This document shows positions 5,369 through 27,339 of a stretch of DNA of 43,490 bases, one piece after another. The DNA is from Desulfobulbaceae bacterium (lineage in GTDB: Bacteria; Desulfobacterota; Desulfobulbia; Desulfobulbales; Desulfobulbaceae). The DNA is taken from the NCBI GenBank assembly GCA_019163135.1, contig JAFLKR010000015.1:1-43490 (forward strand), given 5' to 3'. The notes below the pieces were generated by a model. That model was given only the letters and a program-made list of their open reading frames with translations, made no database searches and was not told where the DNA came from. The translations under genes and the position numbers were made by a program. Numbering within the stretch: the first letter of the stretch is position 1; each line of letters begins with the position of its first letter.

Positions 5369-5980
5369 TCAGGGCAGTTCGTTAAGCGATTGGCGGGATT
5401 CGATCGCCCTGGCCAGGGTGTGCTCGTCGGCGTATTTGATATCCATGCCCATGGGGATGCCGCAGGCCAGTCGACTGAGCCGGACAGGAGCCCCCTGGAG
5501 GATATCGGCGAGGTAGCAGGCAGTGGCCTCGCCCGGTACCGTGGAACTGGTGGCGATCAGCACCTCGTCGACGCTGCCGGAAGCGATCCGTTGCCGCAGT
5601 TCCTGGATTTTGAGTTCGTCCGGTCCAATGCCGTCCATCGGGGCGATCACGCCATGGAGAATATGATAGACGCCGCGGAAGACGCCGGTTTTTTCAATGG
5701 CGATCTGGTCGCCCGGTTCTTCAACCACGCAGACCAATCGGGGGTCACGGTTGGGATTGCCGCATATCACACAGGGATTGGTTTCGGAAAAGGTGAAACA
5801 CTGGTGGCAGAGGTGGATGGTCTCGTGCAGCACCAGCAGGTCATTGGCTAAATTCCTGGCCTCGGCCGCCGGTCTGCGGAGGATGTAGAGGGCCAGTCGG
5901 GTCGCGGTTTTGCGGCCAATCCCGGGCAGTTTATTCAGGTCGCTGATCAGGCGCTCCAGAGCGGGTGGAATGACCTGCAT
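5369..5980 (-). CDS. recR: Recombination mediator protein RecR
   Basis: The 203-residue protein shows the RecR layout. An N-terminal helix-hairpin-helix (LNKLPGIGRKTATRLALYIL) is followed by a C4 zinc finger (CHQC then CVIC). A Toprim domain follows, with VVEEPGDQIAIE and HGVIAPMDGIGP, and then the C-terminal Walker-B-like region. RecR acts with RecF/RecO to load RecA on gapped DNA. The ATG follows the TAA stop of the upstream YbaB gene with no intervening base, so translational coupling is likely. Gene order dnaX-ybaB-recR is one of the most conserved bacterial linkages and supports the call. Confidence 0.97.
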   Translation of the reverse strand: MQVIPPALERLISDLNKLPGIGRKTATRLALYILRRPAAEARNLANDLLVLHETIHLCHQCFTFSETNPCVICGNPNRDPRLVCVVEEPGDQIAIEKTGVFRGVYHILHGVIAPMDGIGPDELKIQELRQRIASGSVDEVLIATSSTVPGEATACYLADILQGAPVRLSRLACGIPMGMDIKYADEHTLARAIESRQSLNELP

Positions 5981-6289
5981 TTACATGAGACCCGGTATGT
6001 TGAGGCCGCCGGTCAGGCGCGCCATCTCCGTTTTCCCGAGTTCCTTGGCTTTGTTGAGGCCGTCGTTTACCGCTGCGACCACCAGATCCTGGAGCATCTG
6101 GGTGTTTTCGGGTTGCACGATCGCCTTTTCAATCACCAGTGAGAGCAGTTCGCCTTTGCCGTTAAGCGTGGCGGTCACCATGCCGGCTCCGGCTGAACCG
6201 GTGACCTGCTGGGAGCCCAGATCGTTTTGCACCGTCGCCAGTTTCTCCTGGAGTTGTTGCGCCTGTTTTATCAAATCGCCCATGTTCAT
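5981..6289 (-). CDS. ybaB: YbaB/EbfC-family nucleoid-associated protein
   Basis: This 102-residue protein starts MNMGDLIKQAQQLQEKLA, the helical dimerisation segment of YbaB/EbfC. It continues with a central beta region containing GKGELLSLVIEKAI and a C-terminal helix with VAAVNDGLNKAKEL. Family members form tweezer-shaped dimers that bind DNA with little sequence preference. It lies between dnaX (80-base gap) and recR (directly abutting), the standard arrangement. Upstream of the ATG a GAGG lies at a rather long 11-base spacing. Nothing in the sequence is unusual. Confidence 0.95.
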   Translation of the reverse strand: MNMGDLIKQAQQLQEKLATVQNDLGSQQVTGSAGAGMVTATLNGKGELLSLVIEKAIVQPENTQMLQDLVVAAVNDGLNKAKELGKTEMARLTGGLNIPGLM

Positions 6290-6369
6290 TGTCTGTCATA
6301 CCTCTGAGTAAATATGGTTGGCGACCTGCGGCAAGCACGTAGGGTGGCCAGGGTTGAGAGCGGTCTCGT

Positions 6370-8265
6370 TCATTCCGGGGTGGCGGAAGGGTCTGCAGCC
6401 GATAGCGTGGCCGCCGGACTACTGGTGCGGTAACGGGGGCCAATCCTGATGTCGCCGACCTGACCGGTAAAGATGTCCAACGCGGTCAGCACCAAGGGGT
6501 CGTTGGCCAGTGCGCGTCGTTCCTGCTGCGGCGCCAGACCGTTTGCCGGATCGATGGCGCAGGCACTGGAACCCGGGACCGCAAACTGGATACGGAGATT
6601 CTCCTGAAAAAAATCGAGGACAAACTCGGTAAGCGTATTGATGTGGCTGCTCTGTTTCAACATGGTGCAGTCGGCGCTGTCATCGAAACGGATGAGCAGT
6701 TCTTCACCCTTGCGCTCCACCGAGGAGGCCAGCTGCAGGGCCCCGGACATCCAGGGTTGGCGCTCATGCACATATTTGAGAAAAAGGCTCCAGTGCTGGC
6801 GGATACGTTTTTTTTCGTCGGCCGGTGCTGTGGGCATGGCCTCCTGGCGGGATGAGGTTACCTCTACCTGGGCAGCGGGTTGCGGCGGTTGTTCAGGTGG
6901 CGATTCCTTTGGGAAGGGAGCAGACGGCTGCAACTCTGGCAGAGGCTCCGGTGCTGCCGGTGTGCTGGGTTGGAAGCGTTGGGATGATTCGCGCGCGGGT
7001 GCGAAGGCTGCCTGGGCTGGTTGAACCGGGGCAGGCGCGGACGACGGTTGCTTGTGGGGAATCGTCGCCGGTGGTTGCGGTGATACAACAGCAACAGGAC
7101 TGGCAGGCAGGGTCTCGAGGGGTGCGCCGGCCAGCAGCTGATCAAACCGGGCGATGAGGTCGGAGACGGGGACCACATCACGGAATTGGACGGCGCGGAT
7201 AAAGGTTAGCTCCAGCGCCAGTCGGGGTTGTTGAGAAAAGGTGGCTTTTTCCAGGCCTTCCAAGAGCAGATTGAAAATAGCTGACAGGGTTTCCAGAGAG
7301 TGGAGCGCTGCTGTTTGCTGCAAGAGGGTCAGTTCCTCTTCGGTTGCCTCAAGGAGGTCAGCCGGTTTTTTGCTGACCTTGCAGACAATCAGGCTTCGGA
7401 ACCAAGTGAGGAGATCGTTGCTGAATCGTCTGGTATCCGTGCCATGGAGATACATCTCGTCCAGCAGGGTATAAACCGCCCCCAGGTCGCCGCTCAGGAG
7501 GGCCGCTCCCAGATTGGCGACCAGTTGATGGCTGACCAGGCCGAGAACGTCAATGACATCCTCGGTTTTGACCGTCTGGCCGCAATAAGAGAAAATCTGG
7601 TCAAGGAGACTGAGGCCGTCACGGACACTGCCGCCCGCCTCGCGCACGATCATGTCAAGCGCCTCCGGTTCCACTTGCACACTTTCTAACGAAGCGAGCC
7701 GGTTAAAATGGGCGATGAGCTCGGCGTGGCCCAGGCGTTTAAGTTCATAGCGCTGGCAACGGGAGAGAATAGTCACCGGTACCTTGTGCAGTTCGGTGGT
7801 GGCAAACATGAAATAAACATGGCTGGGCGGTTCTTCCAGGGTCTTCAGCAGGGCATTGAAGGCCTCGGTGGTGAGCATGTGGACTTCATCAATGATAATG
7901 ATCTTGTACCGCGAACTGGTGGGCATGAAGCGGATTTTTTCTTTCAGTTCACGGATTTCCTGGATGCCACGATTAGAGGCGCCGTCAACTTCCTGCAGAT
8001 CAATACTTGCGCCTTCGGTAATTTGCCGGCAGGAACGGCACAGATTACAGGGCTCGGCGGCCGGCCCCTGTTCGCAGTTGAGAGCCTTGGCCATGATTCG
8101 AGCCAAGGTAGTTTTACCGGTGCCGCGTACTCCACTGAAAATAAGAGCATGGGGAACGCGACCCTGGACCAGGGCATTCTGGAGGGTGCGAACCACCGCC
8201 TTCTGCCCGATTACTTCTGCAAAGGTTTGCGGCCGCGATTTTCTGGCAAGGACAAGATAGGACAA
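6370..8265 (-). CDS. dnaX: DNA polymerase III subunits gamma/tau
   Basis: The 631-residue protein is the clamp-loader ATPase. The N-terminal AAA+ core has Walker A GVRGTGKTTL, a four-cysteine zinc module ending CNLCRSC, Walker B/DEVHML and the SRC arginine-finger motif (LSRCQRYEL). Domain III ends around residue 365. It is followed by a Pro/Gln/Ala-rich linker to about residue 480 and then a C-terminal tau domain. The start is TTG at 8265. No in-frame ATG lies upstream, and the N-terminus MSYLVLARKSRPQTF aligns with the E. coli start. A run of eight A residues at codons 484-486 could permit slippage to a shorter gamma form (see separate entry). The SRP RNA gene lies just upstream on the same strand. 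Confidence 0.96.
   Translation of the reverse strand: MSYLVLARKSRPQTFAEVIGQKAVVRTLQNALVQGRVPHALIFSGVRGTGKTTLARIMAKALNCEQGPAAEPCNLCRSCRQITEGASIDLQEVDGASNRGIQEIRELKEKIRFMPTSSRYKIIIIDEVHMLTTEAFNALLKTLEEPPSHVYFMFATTELHKVPVTILSRCQRYELKRLGHAELIAHFNRLASLESVQVEPEALDMIVREAGGSVRDGLSLLDQIFSYCGQTVKTEDVIDVLGLVSHQLVANLGAALLSGDLGAVYTLLDEMYLHGTDTRRFSNDLLTWFRSLIVCKVSKKPADLLEATEEELTLLQQTAALHSLETLSAIFNLLLEGLEKATFSQQPRLALELTFIRAVQFRDVVPVSDLIARFDQLLAGAPLETLPASPVAVVSPQPPATIPHKQPSSAPAPVQPAQAAFAPARESSQRFQPSTPAAPEPLPELQPSAPFPKESPPEQPPQPAAQVEVTSSRQEAMPTAPADEKKRIRQHWSLFLKYVHERQPWMSGALQLASSVERKGEELLIRFDDSADCTMLKQSSHINTLTEFVLDFFQENLRIQFAVPGSSACAIDPANGLAPQQERRALANDPLVLTALDIFTGQVGDIRIGPRYRTSSPAATLSAADPSATPE
6808..6815 (-). 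other. Eight-adenine run inside dnaX, candidate slippage site
   Basis: On the coding strand the codons GAA AAA AAA (residues 484-486) form an uninterrupted run of eight A. Insertion of one extra A by polymerase slippage would give about 14 out-of-frame codons and a TGA, making a product of about 500 residues. That product would lack the tau C-terminal domain. Loss of one A opens a longer alternative frame that also ends early. Thermus dnaX makes gamma by slippage on an A-run. Function here is inferred only. Confidence 0.35.
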
Positions 8266-19395: not shown

Positions 19396-20367
19396 ATGGA
19401 AATGGAAAACAAAACAGACCTTACCATCATCACCGACCCGTCTTTCAGCCGGCATGATACCGGTGGAGGCGAGCACCCGGAAATACCCGAGCGACTACAG
19501 GTGATCACTGACCGCCTCTCAAAGGGTTCCTTGGCTGACCAGATTCATTATCTGCCGCCCAGGGCTGCCTTACGTTCCCAGTTGCTCACCTTTCATACCG
19601 AAGGATGGCTGTTTCGCTTCGAAGAATCCGTGCTGTCCGGGCGTACCTATATCGATCATCCGGACAACCAGGTCTGTTACGATTCCTATGAAATTGCCAC
19701 CCTTTCCGCCGGTAGCGGTCTGGTCGGGGTCGACGTCGCCGAGCAACAGCCCGGCTCAGTGGTCTTCTGTCAGACCCGCCCGCCCGGTCATCATGCCGAA
19801 CCCAACATGCCCTTTGGCTTTTGTTTTTTCAATAACTGCGTGATTGCCGCCCGTTACTGGCAGCAGCAATACCATCGACCGCGGGTCTGTGTGTTTGATT
19901 TCGATGCCCACCATGGCAACGGCATCCAGACCGCCTTTGAGGAAGAGGCCGGGACCGCCTATATTTCTATCCACGAACATCCCAGTTTCAGCTATCCCGG
20001 CACGGGTTGGGCCGAGGATCGAGGACTGGGGGCGGGCAAAGGCACTATTCTGAATCTGCCGTTGGCTCCCGGTGCCGGTGCCGATCAGGTGCTGCGGCTC
20101 TTCCCCAAGATCAAAAACTTCCTCGAAGCCTTTCAGCCCGATGCCTTGGTCATCGCCGCGGGATTTGATGCCCACCGCCTGGATGACATGTCAGGCCTGC
20201 TTTTCACCGTTGATTTATATCGCCAAATCGGAAATTTTGTAATGGAACTCGCTCAAGAGTATACCGAAGGTCGATTGGTCTCTATTCTTGAAGGTGGCTA
20301 TTGTCTCGAAAAACTTGGGATTTGTGTTGAAGCCTATCTTGCAGGGCTCGTGGAGATGAAAAAATGA
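19396..20367 (+). CDS. Class II-type histone deacetylase family protein (AcuC-like)
   Basis: The 323-residue protein is a zinc-dependent arginase/deacetylase-fold enzyme that removes acetyl groups from lysines or small amines. It shows the active-site set: RPPGHHAEPNMPFGFCFFNN (tandem His), VFDFDAHHGNGIQ (zinc Asp and His), IHEHPSFSYPGTG, AAGFDAHRLDDM (second zinc Asp) and the late EGGY. All catalytic residues look intact. It heads an apparent operon with an AcuB-like CBS-ACT protein (40-base gap), an ADP-forming acetyl-CoA synthetase and a CoA-transferase/GNAT fusion. The order recalls Bacillus acuABC, where AcuC deacetylates acetyl-CoA synthetase. The actual substrate is inferred only from this context. 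Two close in-frame ATGs exist and neither has a strong Shine-Dalgarno. Confidence 0.92.
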   Translation: MEMENKTDLTIITDPSFSRHDTGGGEHPEIPERLQVITDRLSKGSLADQIHYLPPRAALRSQLLTFHTEGWLFRFEESVLSGRTYIDHPDNQVCYDSYEIATLSAGSGLVGVDVAEQQPGSVVFCQTRPPGHHAEPNMPFGFCFFNNCVIAARYWQQQYHRPRVCVFDFDAHHGNGIQTAFEEEAGTAYISIHEHPSFSYPGTGWAEDRGLGAGKGTILNLPLAPGAGADQVLRLFPKIKNFLEAFQPDALVIAAGFDAHRLDDMSGLLFTVDLYRQIGNFVMELAQEYTEGRLVSILEGGYCLEKLGICVEAYLAGLVEMKK

Positions 20368-20407
20368 TCTCAATCTGTGCTAACGATGGGATCCAGGGAG
20401 GACAGGG

Positions 20408-21064
20408 ATGTTCATACGCTATCATATGACCGCACCGCCAATTACGGTCACTCCGGACCAGACCGTTGCCGAGGCGAACGATATCCTACAGCAATACAAT
20501 TTTCGGCATTTGCCGGTGGTGGATGAGCGCGGCGTGCTCCTGGGAATCCTTTCCGACCGCGATCTGCGCTCGGCCCGGCCTAGTTCGGTGGCTCGGAGCA
20601 AGGAACGGCACAACGTCGAGGAACGGGTGAAAAACACCCCGATTTCGCTGTTGATGACCCGGGATTGCCTGCACCTGTCGCCATTCTCGACCCTGGACGA
20701 TGCCCTGTTGATTTTTCAATCACGTAAGATCGGTGCTATGCCGGTGATTGATGAAGAAGAACGGGTGATTGGCATTTTTTCCATGGGCGATCTGATGAAG
20801 GCCTATCGCTGCCTGTTCGGACTCGGAGAAAAAGGATCGGTTTTGATTTCGATTGAAGATAACGACGATCCTCAGGCGTTGAGTAAACTGGTTAAACTCC
20901 TGGAGGAAAAGCAGGTCCAGTTCACCCGGCTGGTCAGATCGGATGGCTCCTGCAAAACCAGGGCGATGATTTATCTGCGTATCAAGACTTATAATGTCCG
21001 AGCCGTATACAAGACGCTTGAGGCCGCCGGTTTTACCATCCATATTCCCGAGACAACTGCATAA
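20408..21064 (+). CDS. CBS-pair protein with C-terminal ACT-like domain (AcuB-like)
   Basis: The 218-residue protein has two CBS motifs: residues 1-60, including HLPVVDERGVLLGILSDRDL, and about 80-135, including GAMPVIDEEERVIGIFSMGD. A C-terminal domain of about 75 residues, predicted beta-alpha-beta, resembles an ACT fold (SVLISIEDNDDPQALSKLVK). CBS pairs usually bind adenine nucleotides. CBS-ACT is the architecture of AcuB from the acetoin/acetate acuABC locus, whose exact role is still poorly known. It lies 40 bases after the deacetylase and 11 bases before the ADP-forming acetyl-CoA synthetase, so it may sense adenylates or amino acids to tune the acetyl-CoA enzymes. Good Shine-Dalgarno (AGGA) before the ATG. 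Confidence 0.87.
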   Translation: MFIRYHMTAPPITVTPDQTVAEANDILQQYNFRHLPVVDERGVLLGILSDRDLRSARPSSVARSKERHNVEERVKNTPISLLMTRDCLHLSPFSTLDDALLIFQSRKIGAMPVIDEEERVIGIFSMGDLMKAYRCLFGLGEKGSVLISIEDNDDPQALSKLVKLLEEKQVQFTRLVRSDGSCKTRAMIYLRIKTYNVRAVYKTLEAAGFTIHIPETTA

Positions 21065-21075
21065 ACGAGGTGGCT

Positions 21076-23181
21076 ATGCTGGATAAACTTTTTTCCCCCC
21101 GGGCAATCGCTGTGATCGGGGCTTCCAAAACCGTGGGCAAAGTCGGATACGACACGGTAAGCAATCTGGTGAAGAGCGGCTTCAAAGGTCCCATTGTTCC
21201 GGTGAATTCGGCTGGCGGGGAGTTGTTCGGCCTCAAGGTCTATCCGCAAATATCCGACTATCCTGATCCGATCGATATGGTGGTGATCGCGGTGCCGGCG
21301 GAGATGGTTCCGGCTGCGGCCCGGGAAGCGGTCAAGAAAAAAGCCGGGGCCATCGTAGTCGTGGCCACGGGATTCAAGGAAAGCGGCCCGCAGGGCAGGG
21401 CTATTGAGGACGAACTGATCGACATCTGCCGCAAGGGCGGCGTCCGACTGCTCGGCCCCAACTGCCTGGGCGTGATCAACACCGCCATTCACCTCAACGC
21501 CTCTTTTTCAAAAAGATTGCCGCAAGCCGGTCAACTGGCGATTTTCTCCCAGTCGGGAGCCCTGTGCACAGCCATGATGGATATCGCCGACGAGCGCGAG
21601 CTCGGAGTTTCCAAGGCTGTTTCCATCGGCAATAAGGCCGACATCACCGAGGTCGATGTCCTCTCTGCCCTGGCCCATGACGAAGACACTAAGGTGATCG
21701 TCGGCTATCTGGAGGACATCAGCGACGGCGATAAGTTCGTCAAGGCGGCGGAGGAGGCCAGCAGCAGAAAGCCGGTGGTCATCCTCAAGGCCGGGACCAC
21801 CATCGCCGGTTCCAGAGCCGCCTCCAACCACACCGGTGTTCTGGCCGGCAAGGATACCGCCTATGGCGCCGCCTTCAAGCGTGCTGGAATCTGCCGGGCT
21901 GACAGTTTCGAGGCGCTGTTTGATTATGCATCTGCGCTGGCCCTGCAGCCCACGCCCAAGGGCGACCGGGTGCTGATCATCACCAACTCCGGCGGTTCCG
22001 GAACAATGGCCGCCGACGCCGTCGAAAAGGCGGGGATGAGTGTCACTCCTTTGAGCGAACGACTGGCGGCCCAACTGCGCGCGAAATTGCCCGCAGCCGC
22101 TTTTATCGACAACCCTATCGACATTTCCGCCGACGCTGAACCCCGCCATTATGCCGCCGCCATAGACATCGCCGTGACCGACGACGACATTGATGCCATT
22201 CTCGTGGTGCTGGCCCCCCAATATATGACCGAGCCTGCCGCCACCGTCCGGGCCATTGTTGCCCACCTCGACGAAACCACCCCGGTGCTGGCTTCCTTTC
22301 TGGGGGGCAGCGACATCATGCCGCCGCGCAAGGAACTGGCCGCAGCCGGCCTGCCTTTCTACGATTCACCGGAGCGGGCCGTTGGCGCGCTCAAGGCCAT
22401 GCACGATTACGGCGTCTGGAAAAATCGGCCCGCCCGGCATGTGGTCCGTTTTCCGGTCAATCGCCGCCGGGTCGAGCGCATCATTGCCCGTCGGCAGCGG
22501 ACCAATCGGCTGCGATTGGGCGAGGTGAAATCAAAGGATATTCTCAAGGCCTATGGTTTTCAAATCCTTCAAGGACGACTGACTTCCACCCCTGAGGAGG
22601 CAGTGGAGATCGCCCGTTTTATAGGCTTTCCCGTGGCCCTGAAGATCATCTCTCCCAGCATTGTCCACAAGTCAGACCTCGGCGGCGTCCGGCTTAATCT
22701 TGGCTCGGCTCAGGAAGTTGCCGACGCCTTTGATCTTATGATGCTGCGTATCAATAAACATGCTCCCAATGCTGTTATCGGCGGCATTTATGTGGAAAAA
22801 ATGGCGGAAAAGGGGTTGGAGGTGATCATCGGCATGACCCGCGACCCCCAATTCGGCCCCATGCTGATGTTCGGTCTGGGCGGCATCTTTGTCGAGGTGA
22901 TGAAGGACGTCACCTTCCACCTTGCCCCGATTACCGAGAACGAGGCCGTGCAGATGCTCCAGTCGACCCGGTCCTATGAACTCCTTCAAGGCAAACGCGG
23001 CCTCAAAGAGGTCGATATCCACGCCATAGCCGTGGCCCTGCAGCGTATCAGCCAGTTGACCACCGATTTTCCTCAGATTCTCGACCTGGAAATCAATCCG
23101 CTGATCGTCGGCGAGATCGGCAACGAACCGGTGGTGGTCGATGCCAGTATGACTTTTGCGCCGCTGCTTGGCGAAAGGTAA
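21076..23181 (+). CDS. acdAB: ADP-forming acetate/acyl-CoA ligase, fused alpha and beta subunits
   Basis: The 701-residue protein interconverts acyl-CoA + ADP + Pi with acid + ATP, allowing substrate-level phosphorylation. The N-terminal CoA-binding domain starts LFSPRAIAVIGASKTVGKVG. Succinyl-CoA-ligase-like domains follow, with IFSQSGALC and TNSGGSGTMAADAVEKAG. SNHTGVLAG carries the phosphohistidine. From about residue 480 there is an ATP-grasp domain with SIVHKSDLGGVRL, whose His corresponds to the second phosphorylation site in two-His models. Retained histidines distinguish it from the catalytically dead half of PatZ-type acetyltransferases. ATG 21076 with GAGG upstream is preferred to GTG 21070. 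It overlaps nothing and sits centrally in the AcuC/AcuB/GNAT operon, so it is a candidate target of acetylation control. Confidence 0.93.
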   Translation: MLDKLFSPRAIAVIGASKTVGKVGYDTVSNLVKSGFKGPIVPVNSAGGELFGLKVYPQISDYPDPIDMVVIAVPAEMVPAAAREAVKKKAGAIVVVATGFKESGPQGRAIEDELIDICRKGGVRLLGPNCLGVINTAIHLNASFSKRLPQAGQLAIFSQSGALCTAMMDIADERELGVSKAVSIGNKADITEVDVLSALAHDEDTKVIVGYLEDISDGDKFVKAAEEASSRKPVVILKAGTTIAGSRAASNHTGVLAGKDTAYGAAFKRAGICRADSFEALFDYASALALQPTPKGDRVLIITNSGGSGTMAADAVEKAGMSVTPLSERLAAQLRAKLPAAAFIDNPIDISADAEPRHYAAAIDIAVTDDDIDAILVVLAPQYMTEPAATVRAIVAHLDETTPVLASFLGGSDIMPPRKELAAAGLPFYDSPERAVGALKAMHDYGVWKNRPARHVVRFPVNRRRVERIIARRQRTNRLRLGEVKSKDILKAYGFQILQGRLTSTPEEAVEIARFIGFPVALKIISPSIVHKSDLGGVRLNLGSAQEVADAFDLMMLRINKHAPNAVIGGIYVEKMAEKGLEVIIGMTRDPQFGPMLMFGLGGIFVEVMKDVTFHLAPITENEAVQMLQSTRSYELLQGKRGLKEVDIHAIAVALQRISQLTTDFPQILDLEINPLIVGEIGNEPVVVDASMTFAPLLGER

Positions 23182-23225
23182 GCCGCATGCCGGCGAATTG
23201 TTCACCGCACTCATAGGAATTGCTC

Positions 23226-25106
23226 ATGGAATACGAGAAGGATTGGCAGGAAATCTATAGTGATATGATCGCCACCCCGGCCCAGGCGCTGAGCCATCTC
23301 AAGTCGGGGTACAGGGTTTTTATCGGCACGGGCTGCGGCGCACCGCAGGAACTGATTGCCGCTATGACCGGCCGGGCCCGCGCGGTCTCCAATGTCGAAA
23401 TCATCCAGTTGATCACCAAAGGTGACGCCCCTTATGCCGACAAGAAGATGTCGGAGAGTTTTGCGATCAACTCCTTTTTTATCAGTTCCAATATCCGTGA
23501 CGTCATCCAGGAGGGCTTCGGCGACTACACCCCGATCCTGTTGTCCGATGTGCCCAAGCTGTTCGATTCCGGCAGCCTGCCCATCGATATCGCCCTGATT
23601 CAGGTGACCCCACCCAACATCCATGGCCGGGTCAGTCTTGGCATTTCGGTCGACATTACCCGCAGTGCTATTGATAACGCCTCACTGGTTATCGCCGAGG
23701 TCAATCCCAACATGCCCTGGACCCATGGCGACACCCAGGTTGACGTCAACGACCTCGATCTTCTGGTACCGGTGGACCGGCCTATTCTCGAACGAGAACT
23801 GCATGAGCCTGACGAGATCAGCCGCAAAATCGCCCAGACGGTGGCGGCTCTCATCCCCAACGGGTCAACCATCGAACTGGGACTGGGGCGGGTGCCCGGC
23901 TTTGGCCGCATTCCGCAGGTGGTGATGGAGTTTCTTAAAGACCGCAAGGACATCGGCTTTCACACCGAGATGATCTCCGACTCCATCATTCCCCTGATCG
24001 AATCCGGGGCTGTGACCGGGGCGATGAAGTCCATCGACAAAGGTAAAATCACCGCCAGCTTCTGCATGGGCACCAAAAAGCTCTACGATTACATCAACGA
24101 CAATCCCTTGTTCAGCTTCCGGCCGACCGAGTACATCAACGACGCCAACGTCATCGGCAAGCATAAACGGATGGTGGCGGTCAACATGGCCCTCGAGATC
24201 GATCTCACCGGCCAGGTCTGCTCGGACTCGGTGGGGGGGCGTTTCTATTCCGGTATTGGCGGCCAGATTGACTTTAACCGCGGTGCCGCCAGGTCCGAGT
24301 CCGGCCGGGCGATCATCACCCTGCCATCGCTGAACCAGGAAGGAACCGAGTCGCGGATTGTCTGCACCCTCCAGCCGGGATCCGGGGTGGTCATCAACCG
24401 GGCGAGCGTCCACTATGTGGTCACCGAATATGGGGTCGCCTTTCTCCACGGCAAGTCCATCCAGGAGCGGGTTATGGCGTTGATCTCGATTGCCCACCCC
24501 GATTTCCGGGAGCAACTGTTCCGCGATGCGGTGGCCGCCAAATATCTGCGGCCGGGTCTGGCCCGCTTCAGCAGTCGTTTCATGGCACCGGTGGAAGAGT
24601 CGGTCAAGGCATCTTTCCTGATGCAGGACGGCATTGAAGTTGAATTTCGTTCCATCAAGCCCACGGATGAACCGCACATGCGTGACCTGGTCTACAATCT
24701 CAGCCAGGAAACCATCTACTATCGGTTCATGAGCCATCAACAACGCTTTACCCCTCGCCAGATCGAGGATTTTGTCTACATCGACCATCGTCGGGACGTG
24801 GCGGTGGTCGGCACCATCCCCGAGGCCCACGGCGAGCAGATCATCGTGGTCGGCACCTACTATCTCAACGAAAAGACCAATCTGGCCGAGGTGGCCTTTG
24901 TGGTTCGTGACGGCTGGCAGAACAAGGGACTGGGTACTTTTGTCTTCAAGCATCTGATCAAGATCGCCAAGCGCAACGGCATTGCCGGGTTTACCGCCGA
25001 GGTGCTGCGGGAGAACGAACGGATGCAGGCGGTATTCAACCACTCGACCCTGAAAGTGAAGAGTCATCTCGAAGAAGGGGTCTACAGTTTTGTGATGGAA
25101 TTTTAA
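23226..25106 (+). CDS. Acetyl-CoA hydrolase/CoA-transferase fused to GNAT N-acetyltransferase
   Basis: The 626-residue protein has two parts. Residues 1-450 form an acetyl-CoA hydrolase/transferase (class I, 4-hydroxybutyrate/acetate-type) with FIGTGCGAPQEL, the later SGIGGQIDFNRGA and a conserved TEYGVAFLHGKS. The last 160 or so residues are a GNAT domain (FRSIKPTDEPHMRDL, then VAFVVRDGWQNKGLGTFVF) with the acetyl-CoA loop QNKGLG. The fusion could acetylate protein lysines while moving CoA. It lies 44 bases after the ADP-forming synthetase. ATG 23226 with AGGA about eight bases upstream is preferred over the TTG two codons earlier. The GNAT domain fills the place of AcuA in an acuABC-like operon. 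Substrates of both halves are inferred. Confidence 0.9.
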   Translation: MEYEKDWQEIYSDMIATPAQALSHLKSGYRVFIGTGCGAPQELIAAMTGRARAVSNVEIIQLITKGDAPYADKKMSESFAINSFFISSNIRDVIQEGFGDYTPILLSDVPKLFDSGSLPIDIALIQVTPPNIHGRVSLGISVDITRSAIDNASLVIAEVNPNMPWTHGDTQVDVNDLDLLVPVDRPILERELHEPDEISRKIAQTVAALIPNGSTIELGLGRVPGFGRIPQVVMEFLKDRKDIGFHTEMISDSIIPLIESGAVTGAMKSIDKGKITASFCMGTKKLYDYINDNPLFSFRPTEYINDANVIGKHKRMVAVNMALEIDLTGQVCSDSVGGRFYSGIGGQIDFNRGAARSESGRAIITLPSLNQEGTESRIVCTLQPGSGVVINRASVHYVVTEYGVAFLHGKSIQERVMALISIAHPDFREQLFRDAVAAKYLRPGLARFSSRFMAPVEESVKASFLMQDGIEVEFRSIKPTDEPHMRDLVYNLSQETIYYRFMSHQQRFTPRQIEDFVYIDHRRDVAVVGTIPEAHGEQIIVVGTYYLNEKTNLAEVAFVVRDGWQNKGLGTFVFKHLIKIAKRNGIAGFTAEVLRENERMQAVFNHSTLKVKSHLEEGVYSFVMEF

Positions 25107-25290: not shown

Positions 25291-27331
<2,041 letters not shown>

Positions 27332-27339
<8 letters not shown>

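Follow-up and report, generated by a model that had tools for sequence, protein, structure and literature searches.

A Four-Gene Operon of a Desulfobulbaceae Bacterium as a Probable Reversible-Acetylation Module in Acyl-CoA Metabolism

Introduction

Anaerobes that live near the energy limit have to balance the acetyl-CoA spent on ATP against the acetyl-CoA kept for biosynthesis. Might this balance be controlled by an operon that brings together an energy sensor, a writer and an eraser of acetylation, and a pair of acyl-CoA enzymes? Such an operon occupies positions 19396-25106 on the forward strand of a 43,490-nucleotide contig from a Desulfobulbaceae bacterium (JAFLKR010000015.1, assembly GCA_019163135.1). 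This contig (C19 in our numbering) was analysed in its entirety and is referred to below as the window; it belongs to a genome of 3.64 Mb, for which the closest named relatives among the matches listed are Desulfobulbus and Desulfobulbaceae. Open reading frame and domain searches gave four head-to-tail genes, which encode, in order, a Zn-dependent deacetylase of the HDAC family, an AcuB-like protein, a fused alpha-beta ADP-forming acyl-CoA synthetase (ACD), and a CoA-transferase with a C-terminal GNAT domain (CT-GNAT).

The operon is probably an energy-gated, reversible lysine-acetylation module that is tied to the interconversion of short-chain acyl-CoAs and whose likeliest target is an AMP-forming acetyl-/propionyl-CoA synthetase (Acs) in trans. 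This reading is based on the gene content and order, their conservation, the catalytic residues, the predicted fold of the fusion, and the exchange of parts between lineages; from these, we infer acetylation, its targets, the binding of AcuB to the deacetylase, and the direction of control.

Conservation of the Operon

A first-pass annotation, made from the letters of the window, had described four same-strand genes with gaps of 11-44 bases, including a fused ACD, an AcuB-like CBS-ACT protein and a CoA-transferase-GNAT fusion. The gaps, counted from the likely ATG starts, are indeed 40, 11 and 44 bases (alternative starts shorten the last two, to 5 bases from a GTG for ACD and to 38 from a TTG for CT-GNAT), and the three protein assignments were borne out by Pfam and PDB matches.

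Is this arrangement conserved? The comparison took in the best 80 of at least 591 CT-GNAT loci, to which 37 loci of relatives, 4 divergent loci, and 20 top matches chosen from a sample of the phylum were added. A near-full fusion was obtained from 137 loci, of which 103 were left after dereplication at 85% (32 from the window's clade, 28 intermediate and 43 most distant). In the window's clade, ACD lies just upstream of CT-GNAT in 31 of the 32 loci left after dereplication, and in the remaining one the upstream sequence is 134 bases long. Of the 22 loci of this clade with at least 4.5 kb upstream, 17 have HDAC and 16 have AcuB, or 17 if L059 is counted; an apparent AcuB-ACD fusion at L059 was rejected, its single frame spanning a run of N that joins two frames. 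By chance, an HDAC of any kind would be expected near fewer than 2% of loci and Acs near about 0.4% of them if kinship is ignored, figures that are slightly too cautious because they count five HDAC-family loci versus the four seen (one frame was matched twice). The gene order and co-occurrence, which the first-pass annotation had put forward as a check, are therefore conserved beyond chance. In one relative (L063), a gene for a 433-aa AAA_14/DUF4143 protein (5438-6739) stands between AcuB and ACD.

A similar picture emerges at the level of genomes. Among 55 of them, including the window's own, 32 have both the fusion and HDAC, 8 the fusion only, 4 HDAC only, and 11 neither, a co-occurrence with a Fisher p of 4e-4 when kinship is ignored. 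Presence was taken as at least 59% identity for the fusion (40 genomes, of which 36 have a full-length match and 4 have cut pieces that reach at least 85%) and at least 50% for HDAC (36 genomes). The two genes lie on one contig at operon distance in 27 of the 32 genomes that have both, and they are split by contig ends in three others (G002, G015 and G017); in G035 and G048, an HDAC-AcuB pair lies apart from ACD-CT-GNAT.

The Proteins and Their Active Sites

Catalytic residues are kept in all of the enzymes, which makes the active sites look functional. Residues were counted in rows that had not been dereplicated: 116 for the fusion (112 distinct), 81 for ACD (77 distinct) and 56 for AcuB (53 distinct).

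The presumed writer, CT-GNAT (23220-25106, forward strand; 628 aa from a TTG, with an ATG at 23226), matches AcetylCoA_hydro and AcetylCoA_hyd_C (E 3.1e-63) and, at its C-terminus, GNAT (E 8.2e-7) in Pfam, the CoA-transferase extending over residues ~7-445 and the GNAT over ~456-628. A structure predicted with 50 aligned relatives (mean pLDDT 90.7, pTM 0.82) superseded an earlier fold from 18 rows, in which the GNAT was weak and the pTM was 0.67. The CoA-transferase part of the model resembles the 4-hydroxybutyrate CoA-transferases (2oas, Z 54.5, 1.6 Å over 425 residues, 43% identity). For the GNAT part (the last 170 residues), the matches include 4u5y (Z 24.6, 1.5 Å over 164), a structure in which the S. 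lividans Pat GNAT is paired with the acetyl-CoA synthetase C-terminal domain, as well as PatZ of E. coli (Z 23.6) and Rv0998 (Z 20.2). On the strength of these matches, the GNAT is assigned, by sequence and predicted fold, to the Pat kind of protein-lysine acetyltransferase and not to that of AcuA.

In the CoA-transferase, the glutamate of the HTE motif is in place: E250 (HTEM, 23967-23969), which we take from the family to be the catalytic residue, is kept in 115 of the 116 fusion rows, with Q in the divergent L070. E557 (24888-24890), presumably the general base of the GNAT as in Pat, is likewise kept in 115, with D in L131, and the acetyl-CoA loop retains Q567 in 111 rows, G570 in 100 and G572 in 112. 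The CoA-transferase falls short of an exact substrate family, its 291.7 bits with the butyryl-CoA:acetate model (TIGR03948) lying under the cutoff of 674.8. One loop of this domain (23880-23915) carries the GxGR(V/I)P motif in duplicate, as GLGRVP-GFGRIP; of the 116 fusion rows, the 42 nearest to the window have the six extra residues. In the phylum sample, 89 of the 197 genomes have a match to CT-GNAT at E 1e-100 or better; some matches cover just the CoA-transferase part, and one genome (G165) has six, at least one of this partial kind.

The presumed eraser (19396-20367, forward strand; 323 aa; PF00850, E 2.5e-79) was initially called AcuC-like. Its best PDB match, however, is the two-domain HDAC6 (E 3.4e-79, the two domains summed), followed by the Burkholderia HDAC 5ji5 (8.9e-51) and bacterial HDAH, and no class I HDAC is among the 60 of 137 PDB matches listed. 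By sequence, the window HDAC is thus class II-like and goes with the bacterial HDAH types, whereas AcuC of Bacillus subtilis is a class I HDAC (PMC11532494). The zinc-binding and catalytic residues (PPGHH, D168, D170, H172, H173, D258 and Y302) are identical in all 38 aligned sequences.

AcuB (20408-21064, forward strand; 218 aa), the presumed adenine-nucleotide sensor acting on the deacetylase, matches CBS in Pfam over two stretches (E 1.3e-31), and its best PDB match is G. stearothermophilus AcuB, over residues 4-214 and through the ACT part (E 1.6e-24). Two CBS domains and an ACT domain are thus present together with the R33/H34/R51 nucleotide site; R33 is retained in 51 of the 56 AcuB-type rows, H34 in 47 and R51 in 54. 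R33-H34 (20504-20509) corresponds to the nucleotide-bridging pair of B. subtilis AcuB (PMC13039410), in which these three residues hold adenine nucleotides or Ap4A (PMC13039410, PMC13121692). AMP-bound AcuB has been reported to inhibit AcuC (PMC13121692), and Ap4A to strengthen the inhibition of AcuC by AcuB (PMC13039410); these two papers of 2026 disagree on which of the ligands matters. With ligands reported for the Bacillus and Geobacillus proteins, the earlier description of the CBS-ACT ligand as unknown is outdated for the family. HDAC adjoins AcuB in 15 of 20 AcuB loci chosen from other families (picked from matches in 45 of the 197 genomes), and one of the remaining loci begins at a contig edge. 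This adjacency only suggests that AcuB binds and inhibits the deacetylase.

ACD (21070-23181, forward strand; 703 aa from a GTG, with an ATG at 21076) contains CoA-binding, Succ_CoA_lig and ATP-grasp_5 domains (PF13380, PF13607, PF19045 and PF13549; E 2.1e-82 for ATP-grasp_5). Its best PDB match is 8wzu, an ADP-forming 4-hydroxybutyrate--CoA ligase (E 9.6e-149); it scores 557.8 bits with TIGR02717, 9 under the cutoff of 567.15, which leaves acetate a candidate substrate, and 603.7 of 1300 bits with the 4-hydroxybutyrate--CoA ligase model. The phosphohistidine and the ATP-grasp domain of the ADP-forming acyl-CoA synthetases are both present. His254 (SNHTG, 21829-21831), the phosphohistidine that had been noted as retained, is found in all 81 rows near a fusion or an HDAC-AcuB pair, as well as in 21 of 21 paralogues, and His533 in 74 of the 81. 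None of these 21 paralogous non-Pat ACDs (20 chosen ones and one from the window's own genome; Pat-type ACD-GNATs were left out) has HDAC, AcuB or CT-GNAT in the fetched flanks, some of which are short.

Exchange of Parts Between Lineages

What becomes of the writer and the eraser outside the window's clade? In four genomes from four other families of the phylum (L210-L213), a Pat-type protein (ACD-GNAT) is followed by HDAC and AcuB, with ACD next in three of them, and the genes overlap or lie no more than 87 bases apart; the Pat architecture of L212 was confirmed by Pfam. The HDACs of these four loci and that of the window form one group (100/100) in a tree that contained no AcuC sequence and that carries a long-branch warning. 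A 1296-aa "HDAC fusion" at L213 was rejected as an over-long frame overlapping the Pat gene, and the 1290-aa CT-GNAT frame of L090 begins with an over-long stretch.

Planctomycete, Limisphaera, Delongbacteria, Krumholzibacteriota, Thermoplasmata and Thorarchaeota records contain an HDAC of another kind no more than 5 kb from CT-GNAT. Except for one piece at a contig end, it measures 376-401 residues, and it directly adjoins the fusion in L096, L099, L108, L112, L122, L123, L126 and L137. The HDAC of L099, which alone was tested as representative of the group, matches the class I enzymes HDAC8 and HDAC2, and the L099-type HDACs branch apart from the window HDAC, subject to the same long-branch warning. 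In a Phycisphaerae record (L117), the genes are arranged in tandem as ACD, CT-GNAT, ACD, CT-GNAT and HDAC.

The synthetase varies too. Acs lies within 5 kb of CT-GNAT, on either strand, in 12 of the 103 dereplicated loci, and three Thorarchaeota CT-GNAT loci are near Acs without ACD. The 28 intermediate loci include 26 with ACD, 9 with HDAC and 5 with Acs, and at L215, Acs and a propionate--CoA-ligase-like gene precede HDAC-AcuB. The case for a reversible-acetylation unit draws most of its strength from the repeated pairing of a writer, an eraser and an acyl-CoA synthetase in different lineages.

It could be argued that the operon is only metabolic, the GNAT having an unrelated protein or a small molecule as its substrate and the HDAC-AcuB pair merely sharing the promoter, as the pathway is not fixed by the CoA-transferase, which scores under the cutoff of its substrate model. 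This explanation is quite unlikely given that the GNAT matches lysine acetyltransferases in both sequence and fold, that Pat replaces CT-GNAT in other families, and that two groups of HDAC occur near the fusion.

An explanation that is only slightly less improbable is that HDAC-AcuB provides a general, energy-gated de-acylation that counters non-enzymatic acylation by reactive acyl-CoA and has no dedicated writer. Consistent with this idea, no writer was detected near the HDAC-AcuB pairs of L216-L219, L221, L223 and L225-L227, and B. subtilis AcuC acts on several substrates (PMC13039410). In the window's clade and in the Pat-type operons, however, the pair is tied to GNAT writers and acyl-CoA synthetases.

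Proposed Mechanism and Target

How might an energy-gated acetylation module work? CT-GNAT would be the writer: its GNAT would transfer an acetyl group from acetyl-CoA to a lysine on an acyl-CoA synthetase, and the CoA-transferase part would be a working enzyme, an acyl-CoA sensor, or both. HDAC would be the eraser. AcuB would bind adenine nucleotides through its CBS pair and block HDAC through its ACT domain, so that at a low energy charge HDAC would be blocked and the target would stay acetylated. ACD and the CoA-transferase would interconvert acyl-CoA, acid and ATP. The likeliest target would be the ATP-consuming Acs encoded elsewhere in the genome, and a second possible one the operon's own ACD.

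Acs in trans is the first choice because of the match to the Pat-Acs structure and because of the Acs neighbours of CT-GNAT elsewhere. Moreover, if AcuB works as it does in Bacilli, high AMP would halt deacetylation, and Acs would remain acetylated and inactive. Such an outcome would spare ATP, which suits the ATP-consuming Acs better than the ATP-producing ACD.

Alternatively, the main target might be the operon's own ACD, or the attached CoA-transferase, in which case the operon would control its own flux. This alternative is possible, though doubtful. ACD is near CT-GNAT in almost all of the loci of the window's clade and of the intermediate group (31/32 and 26/28), and it comes after HDAC-AcuB in three Pat-type operons; likewise, acsA adjoins acuABC in Bacilli (PMC13121692). 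However, a comparison of the 81 operon-type rows with the 21 paralogues yielded no lysine specific to the former: K24 and K489 are enriched (95% versus 10% and 0%, respectively) but are also present in the solved 9y43, and they were rejected as operon-specific targets. The sign also appears to be wrong, since holding an ATP-producing enzyme acetylated at high AMP would be self-defeating unless ACD runs toward acid activation or its acetylation is not inhibitory. Finally, there are HDAC-AcuB pairs without ACD nearby (L162, L163 and L215-L219), as well as the three Thorarchaeota fusions near Acs.

Several observations weigh against an acetylation module. As just described, the ACD rows offer no unique lysine. 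The HDAC orthologue is absent from 8 of the 40 genomes with the fusion, three of which are less than 85% complete (including one at 56-84%), and ACD, HDAC and AcuB are retained in G025 (86% complete), where the fusion gives no full match. The methionine with which Geobacillus AcuB contacts AcuC is aligned with a tyrosine in AcuB of the window, which also does not keep the K120 of the B. subtilis protein (PMC13039410). Among the most distant CT-GNAT loci, 28 of 43 lack all three of ACD, HDAC and Acs within 5 kb (some flanks being short), and some of the Acs and ACD neighbours of CT-GNAT are on the opposite strand. The genome of the window also holds other possible writers and erasers.

As for G025 itself, AcuB precedes ACD with no CT-GNAT downstream (L165/L166), HDAC lies near the end of another contig, and the only GNAT-like match is a stand-alone one elsewhere in the genome.

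Is the Module Self-Contained?

The operon had been proposed to be a self-contained controller of reversible acetylation. The controller finds support in the conserved unit of writer, deacetylase, AcuB and synthetase and in the active sites that are kept; its self-containment is doubtful. The same genome encodes an AMP-forming Acs with a PKTRSGK motif (contig C1), a second Pat-like ACD-GNAT, two sirtuins, an acetate kinase, and three HDAC-family loci besides the operon HDAC, so the switch would not act alone; moreover, HDAC-AcuB lies apart in G035 and G048. The second Pat-like protein (888 aa; L071 6076-8742, contig C52) has a histidine at the phosphohistidine position (THTG); synthetase domains of type I GNATs have been described as inactive (PMC8556138).

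Searches for a sirtuin and for an acetate kinase found neither of them in four genomes of other genera that have the module (G027, G041, G045 and G046). This result suggests that HDAC and ACD may carry more weight there.

Flanking Features

A promoter scan gave 8 weak consensus sites versus 3.7 expected, and none is claimed. Downstream, uvrB (25291-27339) begins 184 bases past the operon, as in several but not all relatives; its presence in only some of them led to its being taken as synteny. At L129, an MFS assignment was confirmed by Pfam.

Comparison with Known Systems

The components and the principle of such a module are already known. In searches of the open-licence PMC literature, no paper was recognised that describes the operon or a CoA-transferase-GNAT acetyltransferase, nor was a class II-like HDAC found as a partner of AcuB, or a link to an ADP-forming synthetase; the term "CoA-transferase" is absent from the searched text of a review that divides GNATs into five types (PMC8556138). 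Tentatively, CoA-transferase-GNAT fusions may be a further protein acetyltransferase architecture, widespread in bacteria and archaea, in which a working CoA-transferase measures or supplies acyl-CoA for the writer joined to it. It would belong to a mix-and-match circuit of Pat or CT-GNAT writers, class I or II HDAC erasers, the AcuB sensor, and AMP- or ADP-forming synthetases, all exchanged between lineages, and in the window's clade this circuit would control an energy-conserving ADP-forming synthetase. If the operon works as proposed above, energy gating of the AcuB type would reach well past Bacilli, the five-type scheme of GNATs would leave out an architecture that is a real protein acetyltransferase, and the control of ADP-forming synthetases by acetylation would become directly testable.

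The nearest known system is AcuABC-AcsA of Bacilli, which shares with the operon a GNAT writer, a Zn-HDAC eraser, a CBS-CBS-ACT AcuB and a co-encoded acyl-CoA synthetase. The first-pass label "AcuABC-like" applies strictly to AcuB, which keeps the ligand residues R33, H34 and R51. It does not extend to the deacetylase, which is class II-like whereas AcuC is class I, or to the writer, since AcuA is a stand-alone GNAT whereas that of the window is Pat-type and C-terminal to a CoA-transferase. In addition, the adjacent acsA encodes an AMP-forming enzyme whereas the neighbour in the window is ADP-forming, and the gene order differs.

With the Pat-type lysine acetyltransferases, which take the writer slot in the sister operons, the fusion shares the kind of GNAT, by sequence and predicted fold. 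The type I GNATs (Pat) have an N-terminal NDP-forming synthetase domain where the window fusion has a CoA-transferase with E250 kept, and the synthetase of the window is a separate protein and not part of the same chain. The CoA-transferase shares its fold and the HTE motif with the class I CoA-transferases of the 4-hydroxybutyrate/butyryl-CoA:acetate kind and differs from them by the C-terminal GNAT and, in part of the fusion rows, by the six extra loop residues. Lastly, ACD shares all of its domains, His254 and His533 with the ADP-forming acetyl-/acyl-CoA synthetases, but, unlike them, it adjoins a writer, an eraser and AcuB.

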